Shown piece by piece: positions 3,350 through 14,442 of a DNA stretch of 64,000 nucleotides (positions are counted from its first letter, which is position 1; every line of letters starts with the position of its first letter). Source of the DNA: Chloroflexota bacterium (GTDB lineage: Bacteria; Chloroflexota; UBA11872); assembly GCA_022821905.1 (NCBI GenBank), contig JAJECS010000029.1:1-64000 (forward strand), written 5' to 3'. Below the pieces are notes generated by a model. The model was given only the letters and a program-made list of their open reading frames with translations, was not told the origin of the DNA and did not search any database. The translations under genes were made by a program, and so were the position numbers.

Positions 3350-4840
3350 ATGGGCGCTGAGGTCAGGCGGCTGAGCAATTGGATCAACGGCGAGTGGGTG
3401 GAGTCGGCCAGCACCGATCGTCTGGACGCCGACAATCCGGCGACGGGCGAGGTGATCGCCAGCGTCCCGCTGTCGACCGAGTCTGAGATCGACGCGGCCG
3501 TGCAGACGGCCAAGGCGGCCTTCCCCGCGTGGCGCGACACCCCGGCGGTCGACCGCGGACGGGTGCTGTTTCGGCTGCATTCGCTGATGCGGGATCGGTT
3601 CGAGGAGCTTTCCCGCACCGTGACCATTGAAAACGGCAAGACGCTGGAAGAGGCCCGAGGCGAGGTGCTGCGGGCCGTCGAGAACGTCGAAGTGGCCGCA
3701 GGCGTTCCCACCCTGCAGCAGGGCTCGTTTTCCAGCGACATTTCGGCGGCCATCGATGAGCACTCGATCCGCGAGCCGCTGGGCGTGTTTGCGCAGATCG
3801 GGCCCTTCAACTTCCCGGCCATGGTGCCCTTCTGGTTCGCCCCGCTGGCGGTGGCCTGCGGCAACACCTTCGTGACAAAGCCGTCGCAGAAGACGCCGCT
3901 GAGCCAGACGCTGCTCACGGAACTGACCGCCGAGGCGGGCTTCCCGCCGAGCGTGATGAACCTGGTGCACGGCGCCGGCGAGCAGGCGCAGGCGCTGAGC
4001 GCTCACCCGGACGTGGCCGGCGTGTCGTTCGTGGGCTCGACGCCGGTGGCGCGGGCGGTCTACGAGACGGCCACGCGGCACGGAAAGCGGGCGCAATGCC
4101 AGGGCGGGGCGAAGAATCATCTAGTGGTGCTGCCGGATGCCGACCTCGACGCCGCGATCCCCAACATCTGCGGCTCGACCTATGGCTGCGCCGGCCAGCG
4201 GTGCCTGGCCGGATCGGTGGTGGTGACGGTCGGCAGCGTGCGCGAGGAGCTGACGGAGCGGCTGGTCGAGGCAACCTCATCGATTCGCCTGGGCGACGGG
4301 CTCGATCCCGATACGGGCATGGGTCCGGTGATTTCCGCCGAGTCGCGCGACCGCGCGTTCACCTATATCGACCAAGCGGTCAAAGACGGCGCCGAACTCC
4401 TGCTGGACGGTCGCGGGGCGACCGTCGACGAGCTGCCGGGCGGCTACTGGGTCGGCGCAACCGTGCTGCACGAGGTGACGCCCGACATGCCCGTGGTGCG
4501 CGATGAGATCTTCGGTCCGGTGGTGAGCCTGATGCATGCCGACACGCTGCAGGAAGCCATTGACATGGTGGAAGCCAGCCCCTTCGGCAACGCGGCCACG
4601 CTCTACACCAACAGCGGCGGCGCGGCGCGGGAGTTCACGCGGCAGGTGAACGTCGGCAATGTCGGCATCAACGTGGGCGTGGCGGCGCCGATGGCCTTCT
4701 ATCCCTTCGGCGGACGCAAGCAGTCGTTCTTCGGCGACATCCACGCGCAGTCCACCGAGCTAGTGCGGTTCTACACCGATCCAAAGGTCGTGATCACGCG
4801 TTGGCCCGACAAGACGGACGGCCGGGATCCGTGGGACTGA
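3350..4840 (+). CDS. mmsA: CoA-acylating methylmalonate-semialdehyde dehydrogenase
   Basis: A 496-residue aldehyde dehydrogenase of the MmsA/IolA type. These convert (methyl)malonate semialdehyde, NAD and CoA to propionyl- or acetyl-CoA. The oxyanion Asn is N154 in GPFNFP and the nucleophile is C285 in CAGQRCLAG. The general-base Glu of hydrolytic ALDHs is absent: QGGAKNH stands where ELGGK is usual, as expected for the CoA-dependent subfamily. An in-frame ATG at 3329 also exists. I prefer 3350 because GGAGG at 3335-3339 is placed for it. It is divergent from the D-threonine aldolase-like gene and is followed after 21 bases by an O-methyltransferase. Confidence 0.92.
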   Translation: MGAEVRRLSNWINGEWVESASTDRLDADNPATGEVIASVPLSTESEIDAAVQTAKAAFPAWRDTPAVDRGRVLFRLHSLMRDRFEELSRTVTIENGKTLEEARGEVLRAVENVEVAAGVPTLQQGSFSSDISAAIDEHSIREPLGVFAQIGPFNFPAMVPFWFAPLAVACGNTFVTKPSQKTPLSQTLLTELTAEAGFPPSVMNLVHGAGEQAQALSAHPDVAGVSFVGSTPVARAVYETATRHGKRAQCQGGAKNHLVVLPDADLDAAIPNICGSTYGCAGQRCLAGSVVVTVGSVREELTERLVEATSSIRLGDGLDPDTGMGPVISAESRDRAFTYIDQAVKDGAELLLDGRGATVDELPGGYWVGATVLHEVTPDMPVVRDEIFGPVVSLMHADTLQEAIDMVEASPFGNAATLYTNSGGAAREFTRQVNVGNVGINVGVAAPMAFYPFGGRKQSFFGDIHAQSTELVRFYTDPKVVITRWPDKTDGRDPWD

Positions 4841-12903: not shown

Positions 12904-13179
12904 CGATCCGCCGCCGGGTCGCGCTCGATCGGGCGAGGTTCCAACCAGGTCCCGTCTATGCCAGAGCCGCGCGTGGCTGGTGCGAAACAAGCGGCTGCGC
13001 CCCCGAAGTGGGCATCGCGCTTCTCGAATCGCAGAGGGCGGCGCTAGACGCCGCATGCTAGATGAGACCAGTGTGTGGCGCGCATCGACCGCGCCAGTGT
13101 GAGTTCCGCAACGCGGTGGCGAAGCGCTCCGGCGATTTTGTAAGAAGACTTACAGTGCGGGCAGCGAAATTTGTCCTGG

Positions 13180-13568
13180 CGAAGCGCCTGCGCATCGAGC
13201 CGCACGCGGACAGCGTGACCTGGTCACCGGAGCTGGCGCTGCGCATGCTGGACGACATGCCCGGCCTGTCGTTAACGCTGGATCACTCGCACTTCGTGTT
13301 CCACGGCATGCCCTATGAGCACATCGCGCTGATGCATCCGCACGGGACGCACTGGCACGTGCGCCAGGCGGCGCTGTCGCAGCTGCAATTGCGCTTTGAC
13401 GAGGGCACCATCGACTTCCCGCGGATCGTGGCCGACCTGAAGCACGACGGCTACGACGGAGTGATGGCGCTGGAGCTGGCGACGACACCGTGGCTGGGCC
13501 TCAACCACATGGACGTGCTGACGGAGACGATCTTGCTGAGGGATCAGATGCGGGGGTTGCTGGCGTAG
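13180..13568 (+). pseudogene. Truncated sugar-phosphate isomerase/epimerase (AP endonuclease 2 superfamily)
   Basis: From about 13180 the frame reads like the last 130 residues of a xylose-isomerase-like TIM barrel. It has RLRIEPHADS, then LTLDHSHF, a HVRQA block, GTIDFPRI and ALEL near the end. Full-length family members are about 270-290 residues. The region upstream in the same frame (13062-13180) does not resemble the missing N-terminal half, and no start with a ribosome site is present. I interpret it as a decayed gene that lost its 5' half, possibly during the rearrangement that placed the MMPL gene next to it. Confidence 0.7.
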
Positions 13569-13608: not shown

Positions 13609-13614
13609 TATACT
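13609..13614 (+). promoter_or_regulatory. Putative -10 element for the RNA leader and DUF3800 gene
   Basis: TATACT lies 6 bases before the first base of the structured RNA stem at 13621, which would be the expected transcription start. No clear -35 box is seen at the right spacing, so this is a modest call. Confidence 0.4.
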
Positions 13615-13620
13615 TGGGCT

Positions 13621-13671
13621 TGACCAGGAGGGTCACGGTTAACTGACCCGTGGGATTCGTCCCCCTGGTCA
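13621..13671 (+). ncRNA. Structured RNA leader upstream of DUF3800 gene (candidate DUF3800 RNA motif)
   Basis: A compact 51-base element is closed by a perfect 8-bp stem, TGACCAGG (13621-13628) with CCTGGTCA (13664-13671). Inside, GGGTCA (13630-13635) can pair with TGACCC (13644-13649). GGGA (13652-13655) pairs with TCCC (13660-13663) around a UUCG tetraloop. An alternative pairing CACGG/CCGTG (13634-13638 with 13648-13652) is exclusive with the inner stem, so a switch or pseudoknot is possible. A T-rich run (TTCTTTTT) follows at 13673-13681. Comparative work has described several 'DUF3800' RNA motifs that lie just upstream of DUF3800 genes; position and shape here fit, but which class it belongs to is not known to me. 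Confidence 0.72.
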
Positions 13672-13695
13672 CGTTCTTTTTCGGAGACTGGCGCG

Positions 13696-14442
13696 ATGTA
13701 TCTGTTATACCTCGATGAGTCGGGTCTCCATCAAGGCCCTTACTTCGTACTCGCTGGCCTTGCCGTACACGAGACGCAATCGCATTCGCTCTCATCTGCG
13801 GTCGACAATCTCTTGGAAGCGCGACTTTCGTCACACGCGCAAGCCGAACCGTTACGTGCAACGGCTATTCGTGCCGGAGCCGATTCACCGTGGGACGAGA
13901 TTGACAAGAGGCTTCGGTACGACCTGCTCGACGAGACCTACGAGGTCATCCGGGAAAGCGGGACCGTTCTATTCGGCGTAGCAATTGAACGAGGGTGGCT
14001 GCCTTCGGGCGAAAACGAATACCTATTCGCTCTCGAGAGCATTGCCCGGCGGTTCGACGGGTGCCTGCAACGGATGAATCGCCTCGAATCCAACTGGCAA
14101 CGGGGGATTATCATCGTCGCCGAGTCTCAGTTCCGCGCACGGATTGAGACCCTCGCACTGAGGATCCAACAACAGGGCACACGGTGGGGCGAGCTTCGGA
14201 ACCTCGCAGAAGTCCCATTGTTTACCTCCGCCTCCAACTCTCGGATGCTTCAGCTCGCCGACCTGTGTGCGAACGCGGTACATGCTCGATACGCCACAGG
14301 CCATGCGCGCCACTTTGACCGAATCGCTCCGCGCTTCGATGCGAACGCTGGAATCGTCCATGGCCTCTGGCACGCTTCCCGAGATCATCAAACGTGCCTT
14401 TGTCCCGGATGCCTTAGCAGGCGGATCGCTGGTAGCGACTAG
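13696..14442 (+). CDS. DUF3800 domain-containing protein
   Basis: A 248-residue protein opening with MYLLYLDESG, the N-terminal signature of DUF3800, with acidic pair D7/E8. A second acidic strand is IIIVAES (E143), and the conserved C-terminal QLADL is at 186-190. The spread of acidic residues on strands recalls RNase H-like nucleases, but catalysis is unproven. The tail carries a CxCxxC cluster (C234, C236, C239) that might bind metal. The gene sits 24 bases after the structured RNA and is convergent with an SDR. Such genes are often found in mobile or defence contexts. Codon use is less GC-biased than in the neighbours, consistent with transfer. Confidence 0.85.
   Translation: MYLLYLDESGLHQGPYFVLAGLAVHETQSHSLSSAVDNLLEARLSSHAQAEPLRATAIRAGADSPWDEIDKRLRYDLLDETYEVIRESGTVLFGVAIERGWLPSGENEYLFALESIARRFDGCLQRMNRLESNWQRGIIIVAESQFRARIETLALRIQQQGTRWGELRNLAEVPLFTSASNSRMLQLADLCANAVHARYATGHARHFDRIAPRFDANAGIVHGLWHASRDHQTCLCPGCLSRRIAGSD

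Follow-up and report, generated by a model that had tools for sequence, protein, structure and literature searches.

The DNA analysed in this work, a stretch of 64,000 nucleotides hereafter called the window, holds on its plus strand (13621-13671) a 51-base RNA that can fold as a compact three-way junction just upstream of a DUF3800 gene. The fold is supported by covariation among homologous leaders, is flanked by promoter- and terminator-like signals, and appears related to the Rfam family DUF3800-VI (RF02915). By analogy with known modules, our leading proposal, held tentatively and at somewhat below an even chance, is an RNA-restrained nuclease, in which the terminated RNA would limit read-through into the gene and hold its nuclease-like product in check.

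Fold, covariation and end signals of the leader RNA

P1 pairs positions 13621-13628 with 13664-13671 (UGACCAGG/CCUGGUCA, eight perfect pairs); a single A read from the sequence (A13629) stands between P1 and P2, which joins 13630-13634 to 13645-13649 (GGGUC/GACCC) and may gain a sixth, A-U pair; and a GU linker separates P2 from P3 (13652-13655/13660-13663, GGGA/UCCC), whose UUCG loop is closed by A-U. The junction ends 24 bases before the ATG of the DUF3800 gene, and the original prediction of a structured RNA directly 5' of this gene, with three stems, an 8-bp closing stem and a UUCG loop packed in 51 bases, is confirmed. The UUCG loop itself is incidental, and varies among copies (CUCG in L020, other loops elsewhere). 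Single-sequence folding was too weak as evidence alone, with an energy z of -1.94 over 76 nt (6 of 200 shuffles folded equally well) and of -1.17 over 53 nt (25 of 200 equally good).

DUF3800 homologues were collected from a phylum sample (17 of 400 genomes), the window's family (9 of 19 genomes), public genomes (26 loci), plasmids (47 records) and phages (2 records), and the same fold was found in most leaders preceding genes that start like M(Y/H)LLYLDE(S/A)G. In A2, an alignment of 21 homologous leaders that replaced a 13-leader MAFFT alignment with a misaligned P2, 93.2% of 399 cells were paired, a value that dropped to 35-45% when partners were slid by 1-3 columns. The compensatory changes by which the prediction was to be judged are strong in these 21 leaders, with double changes at 18 of 20 pairs and 96 double-change cells versus 30.5 in shuffles. 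This strength comes from the distant set, because the seven close copies show a two-sided change at just one stem pair, which belongs to P1, and no variation in the stems of P2 and P3.

The suggestion that alternative pairing could make the element a switch found no support, as no conserved competing pairing was noticed on an unsystematic inspection of A2; a ligand riboswitch likewise found no support there. The conserved promoter signal at the 5' side and terminator signal at the 3' side point to a terminated small RNA or an attenuator, not to a ligand switch. A -10 box (TATACT, 13609-13614, plus strand) lies 6 nt before P1, and transcription is predicted from sequence to start near the first base of P1; across loci, 28 of 36 copies (27 distinct locus names by script) have a -10-like hexamer that ends 5-9 nt short of P1, compared with a mean of 2.7 and a maximum of 8 in mononucleotide shuffles. 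Immediately 3' of P1, at 13672-13681, the window reads CGUUCUUUUU, and this U-run (CGTTCTTTTT), together with the cross-locus count, makes a proposed terminator with the junction as its stem. An immediate U-run follows P1 in 22 of 41 copies, a hairpin plus U-run in 19 of 41, and one or both in 38 of 41, compared with 7.3% of 820 random stretches from the same loci; three loci (L041, L021 and L006) have neither by the rules used. Both the -10-like box and the T-rich run named in the original prediction are therefore present, and above chance across loci. A simple promoter and terminator scan of the window flagged neither; visual inspection shows no convincing -35 box, the junction differs from a simple hairpin, and a probable ribosome-binding site (GGAG) is seen at 13683-13686. 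Taken together, the RNA looks, at the sequence level, like a short transcription unit of its own.

Several RNA families associated with DUF3800 genes are held in Rfam, the motifs reportedly stemming from a 2017 paper, and we know of no role assigned to any of them; likewise, the available portions of the DUF3800 literature covered report no function for these RNAs. A link to these motifs had been anticipated, and it holds through the relatives: the leaders of L030, L034, L036, L040, L075, L077, L079 and L080 pass RF02915 and align with the window RNA in A2. The window itself matched no DUF3800 model, either at the gathering threshold or at E <= 10, and falls short of the RF02915 threshold of 35 bits; its sibling L085, with 6 differences from it in 51 bases (four within the P2 loop), aligns end to end with RF02915 at 29 bits, under the cut-off of 35. 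The window RNA has the P1-A-P2-NN-P3-P1' three-way junction of DUF3800-VI, with covariation, and its position upstream of a DUF3800 gene. Shared features are the 8-bp P1, the single A, P2, the 2-nt linker, P3 and the absence of a linker before the 3' strand of P1, whereas the window P2 has 5-6 pairs and a 10-nt loop (after five pairs) with a palindrome, in contrast to the 7 pairs and short loop of the RF02915 consensus; moreover, unlike RF02915, sister copies of the window RNA precede an ATPase gene or stand alone. We thus class the window RNA, on these comparisons, as a divergent relative of DUF3800-VI that is not a member by Rfam's own criterion, and label it DUF3800-VI-like because A2 leaders pass RF02915 and L085 reaches 29 bits. 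Other Rfam elements were seen near two of the relatives: in L034, a minus-strand TPP riboswitch (2335-2445) precedes the archaeal DUF3800-VI RNA by about 480 nt, and on the Ti plasmid L076 the ar15 sRNA (3673-3782, 112.6 bits) lies upstream of the DUF3800-VI RNA at a distance of about 110 nt.

The DUF3800 subfamily, its protein and its carriers

A covariance model (R1) was built from the 21 leaders, window included. It scores the window RNA, itself one of the model sequences, at 48.2 bits (E 5.7e-9), as the single significant match in the window; the leader has one RNA copy. Among 46 distinct loci of the MYLLYLDESG type, R1 matched within about 110 nt upstream of the gene in 36 (21 in the model and 15 outside it, 7 of these 15 distant) and about 550 nt upstream in L023 and L033; the remaining eight were unmatched (L010, L019, L022, L024, L032, L039, L042 and L044), and of these L024 and L042 show a junction-like fold by eye. 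At 19 loci that hold partial or other DUF3800 relatives, several of them cut by contig ends, R1 gave no match up to E 10. The RNA thus appears to go with one DUF3800 subfamily, across phyla and including archaea, and RNA-DUF3800 pairs are found again in bacterial and archaeal genomes, on small plasmids and in a phage.

The window gene (13696-14442, plus strand) encodes 248 aa with the N-terminus MYLLYLDESG, and DUF3800 (PF12686, E 1.2e-13) is its sole Pfam domain. An AlphaFold2 model of the protein (mean pLDDT 91) gave as best solved structure in Foldseek an RNase HII (1eke, E 1.6e-4), the first seven rows all being RNase HII, at 13-17% identity and TM-scores of 0.37-0.51; a PDB sequence search with the protein profile returned nothing useful (best E 0.43). 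The D7-E8-S-G of the window protein is similar to DEAG, a motif of RNase HII. All of 32 aligned relatives (of 35 translated) have D7, E8 and E26 as well as an acidic residue at 172, and 30 of them have D189. From the model, the protein is predicted to have an RNase HII-like fold and to be nuclease-like, probably an enzyme that cuts RNA. The available text of a published AlphaFold analysis assigns DUF3800 an RNase H fold that shows a catalytic rearrangement, and links it to putative ncRNAs (PMC10910872). Upstream of the RNA, an open frame (13062-13568) covers the C-terminal portion of a TIM barrel of xylose-isomerase-like type (AP_endonuc_2, E 7.9e-10) and is probably a gene remnant; BLAST of 13168-13446 at the locus in five sister genomes found no match.

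The module is patchily distributed. Members of the window's genus differ in what lies between the MMPL and SDR genes: the window has RNA and gene, G109 has the RNA (98% identical) and no DUF3800 gene there, its genome carrying a DUF3800 gene of 41% identity elsewhere, and G051, G133, G010 and G060 have neither. Enterobacterial plasmids of 3.6-6.9 kb carry the module with few other annotated genes, it was found in 12 of 5,426 E. coli genomes, always on plasmids, and in a Pseudomonas phage it lies one gene away from a CI-like repressor. The RNA is upstream in all 35 plasmid records covering at least 80% of the window protein, many of which are close relatives. Broken DUF3800 genes on several plasmids still lie beside a high-scoring RNA (42.6-56.6 bits): the RNA is kept where the gene is frameshifted or fragmented (L152 and L157, and by annotation L158 and L160), truncated with a changed active-site motif (L153 and L154, the latter having also lost part of its terminator hairpin) or split, with an insertion sequence next to it (L156). 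Gene and RNA have both decayed in G023 (R1 13.8 bits), and at L161 the gene is partial and R1 found nothing. As to RNAs beside broken genes, chance alone preserves a short RNA more often than it preserves a gene. Virus contigs yielded no relatives of the DUF3800 protein and no matches for two RNA patterns, hence no phage decoy RNA was found there.

RNA-led ATPase genes and palindromic P2 loops

In family f1, the RNA also occurs just 5' of a gene for an AAA_15 ATPase of 528-545 aa (Pfam AAA_15, 4e-19; PADLOC best PD-T4-4_A, 5.5e-32). Such ATPase-linked copies were found in five genomes (G085, G101, G308, G205 and G069); in two of these, G101 and G069, the window's DUF3800 protein has no match. 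Degraded copies are present in G229 and in the window's own genome, G000, where the one on contig C4 (L166, 3163-3213, 10.9 bits) retains P1 and P2 before the ATPase gene; G023 has no clear one, and the more distant ATPase homologues L171-L175 gave no R1 match. The idea of a single recent capture of the ATPase leader was rejected in view of these five intact and two decayed states within one family. In a comparison of four ATPase loci, identity was 92-97% over the RNA with 10 nt added, 72-84% over the 200 nt upstream and 58-68% over the first 600 nt of the ATPase gene. These values suggest selection on the RNA at these loci, although conservation of the upstream flank likewise exceeds that of the gene. 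At L020 (1174-1225, 30.5 bits), another copy has no DUF3800 gene directly behind it. In a phylum-wide search of 400 genomes, strict filters missed copies found in smaller searches, so that the counts are lower bounds. Within the literature covered, two features of the RNA in the window's family appear to be new: it can lie before an AAA_15 ATPase gene as well, and it can occur by itself.

Other genes and matches were seen around these loci. A DRT4-type antiviral reverse transcriptase (RVT_1) is encoded at L130 (8166-9713; PADLOC Drt4, 3e-139) and at L020 (4520-6067), one lying about 2.9 kb after an ATPase-linked RNA and one downstream of a DUF3800 locus; at L124 (7105-8706), a DUF5131 gene and its neighbour match the PADLOC candidate PDC-M41 downstream of an RNA-led ATPase operon; and a 25-bit R1 match at L097 (1501-1551, G229) may be due to chance.

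In the main rival explanation, the RNA would be a purely cis-acting leader with no partner protein. The junction and U-run would form an attenuator, a trigger, namely a host or phage factor, would determine how far transcription reads through it, and the RNA would have become a shared leader for defence-type genes. Its occurrence close before both DUF3800 and AAA_15 genes, its near identity at ATPase loci whose genes have diverged, and its presence in genomes lacking a match to the window's DUF3800 protein all favour this possibility; however, the RNA tracks one DUF3800 subfamily across phyla, archaea included, a separate terminator hairpin in 19 of 41 copies means that the junction is not needed as terminator there, no conserved antiterminator was noticed, and a gene-less copy persists in G109. 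We consider a purely cis-acting leader possible, though less likely than the restrained nuclease.

It is still less probable, in our judgement, that the RNA is a guide or scaffold subunit that activates or aims a DUF3800 ribonucleoprotein cutting foreign RNA or RNA-DNA hybrids. The RNase H-like fold of the DUF3800 model and the promoter-terminator layout of the RNA agree with such a role, as does the proximity of DUF3800 proteins to some Cas12a2-type loci (PMC10910872) and to VI-F and V-A2 CRISPR loci (PMC12669027) in the available text of these reports; but no variable, target-like segment was seen, the RNA being nearly all paired and conserved in close copies.

The P2 loop of the window contains the palindromic hexamer GTTAAC (13638-13643, plus strand), a proposed kissing-loop site set in the usual layout of 3 nt, hexamer and 1 nt. 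A palindromic loop hexamer was found in 16 of 38 P2 hairpins examined (a 39th copy yielded no hairpin), comprising six hexamers (GUUAAC, GCUAGC, UCUAGA, AGGCCU, GGUACC and GAGCUC) in ten distinct loops. Fourteen of the 16 are Chloroflexota copies, the window included, and the other two (L026 and L027), from Gammaproteobacteria, played no part in forming the palindrome idea. The 22 hairpins without a palindrome include L037, L045 and L081 (5 pairs by script) and the Chloroflexota copy L009. An initial view that all window-like copies are palindromic gave way to 16 of 19 when three ATPase-linked ones identified later proved to lack the hexamer, two of them being also structurally degraded; the group of 19 was itself delimited in part by this feature. 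In seven distinct hairpins with a 10-nt loop, all three palindrome pairs show double changes. Five genomes (G085, G308, G109, G205 and G400) hold more than one palindromic copy, and each of them has at least two different hexamers; in G205 one hexamer is also present twice.

The simplest reading suggested by these sequences is self-pairing between two molecules, because intramolecular pairing of a loop hexamer with itself is impossible; within the literature covered, the palindromic P2 hexamer of window-like copies appears to be new. A DNA operator or other DNA-level site is highly improbable, for although all palindrome changes are Watson-Crick and fit DNA as well as RNA, the six different hexamers are all self-complementary and sit in the apical loop of a conserved RNA hairpin, and one sequence-specific regulator would not tolerate changing hexamers. 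Retroviral and plasmid kissing-loop RNAs have an apical loop with a short self-complementary stretch and a few unpaired flanking bases, a layout that the window P2 loop shares, whereas RNA, host and role differ. It is conceivable, albeit unlikely, that the window-like copies define a new class of RNA-controlled nuclease, with a kissing-loop homodimer RNA, mostly distinct palindromes among paralogues and an AAA_15 ATPase as second gene; if so, the different palindromes of same-genome paralogues would keep their RNAs apart.

A proposed restrained nuclease compared with known RNA-protein modules

In the RNA-restrained nuclease that we favour, a small-RNA gene of about 60 nt would be fused in front of the nuclease gene. 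Transcription would start at the first base of P1, most transcripts would stop at the U-run after P1, releasing a free three-way-junction RNA, and a minority would read through to yield the DUF3800 protein, presumably a nuclease with an RNase HII-type fold. The free RNA would most likely bind the nuclease and restrain it, the terminator would keep RNA in excess over protein, and the window-like RNA would probably self-pair through its palindromic P2 loop and act as a dimer. The module would then be an RNA antitoxin or an RNA-regulated abortive-infection system, like AbiF/RCd22 and type III toxin-antitoxin. The computed basis of this proposal is the conserved fold, the promoter- and terminator-like end signals, the tie to one DUF3800 subfamily, the palindromes and the modelled protein fold; transcript ends, binding, inhibition, toxicity and dimerisation are what we infer from it.

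In favour of the restrained nuclease count the covariation, the subfamily tie, the end signals, the RNase HII-like model and the invariant D7, E8 and E26, together with carriage on plasmids and a phage, the RNA in 35 of 35 plasmid records and its presence beside broken genes, even if an RNA before intact genes and beside broken ones is partly expected, since it carries the promoter and is short. Against it count the G109 locus, which keeps the RNA without the gene, the single copy of the RNA where type III antitoxins are tandem repeats, the joint decay of gene and RNA (G023 and L161) and, as the strongest point, the same RNA before an unrelated AAA_15 ATPase in five genomes, which favours a shared cis attenuator. 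This unrelated gene behind the same RNA can in turn separate a partner-RNA model from a pure attenuator model. Moreover, one Rfam DUF3800 RNA family can now be put to the test as a proposed discrete, terminated RNA that accompanies a nuclease of RNase HII fold; the module is easily testable on small E. coli plasmids, and the palindromic loops predict dimerisation.

In the available account of AbiF/RCd22, a prophage-borne unit comprises a promoter, an Rfam RNA motif, a Rho-independent terminator and a toxin gene, and its RNA ends transcription early and neutralises the toxin (PMC12373285). The window shares with AbiF/RCd22 (RF03085) the layout of promoter, structured RNA motif, terminator and effector gene, here as sequence signals alone; AbiF/RCd22 has two motif copies and a tested function, whereas the window has one copy, known from sequence. 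The effectors also differ, the AbiF toxin being Abi_2, which is HEPN-like, and the window protein RNase HII-like. Type III systems (ToxIN, CptIN and TenpIN), in the part of the source available, combine a single promoter, RNA, terminator and nuclease gene in one operon and occur on plasmids and chromosomes (PMC5086642). Type III antitoxins are tandem repeats and the window leader RNA is a single copy, and in place of a ToxN-family toxin the window encodes a protein that is DUF3800 in Pfam with an RNase HII-like model. The restrained-nuclease model is favoured because its predicted order of promoter, RNA, terminator and effector matches that of AbiF/RCd22 and of the type III operons.
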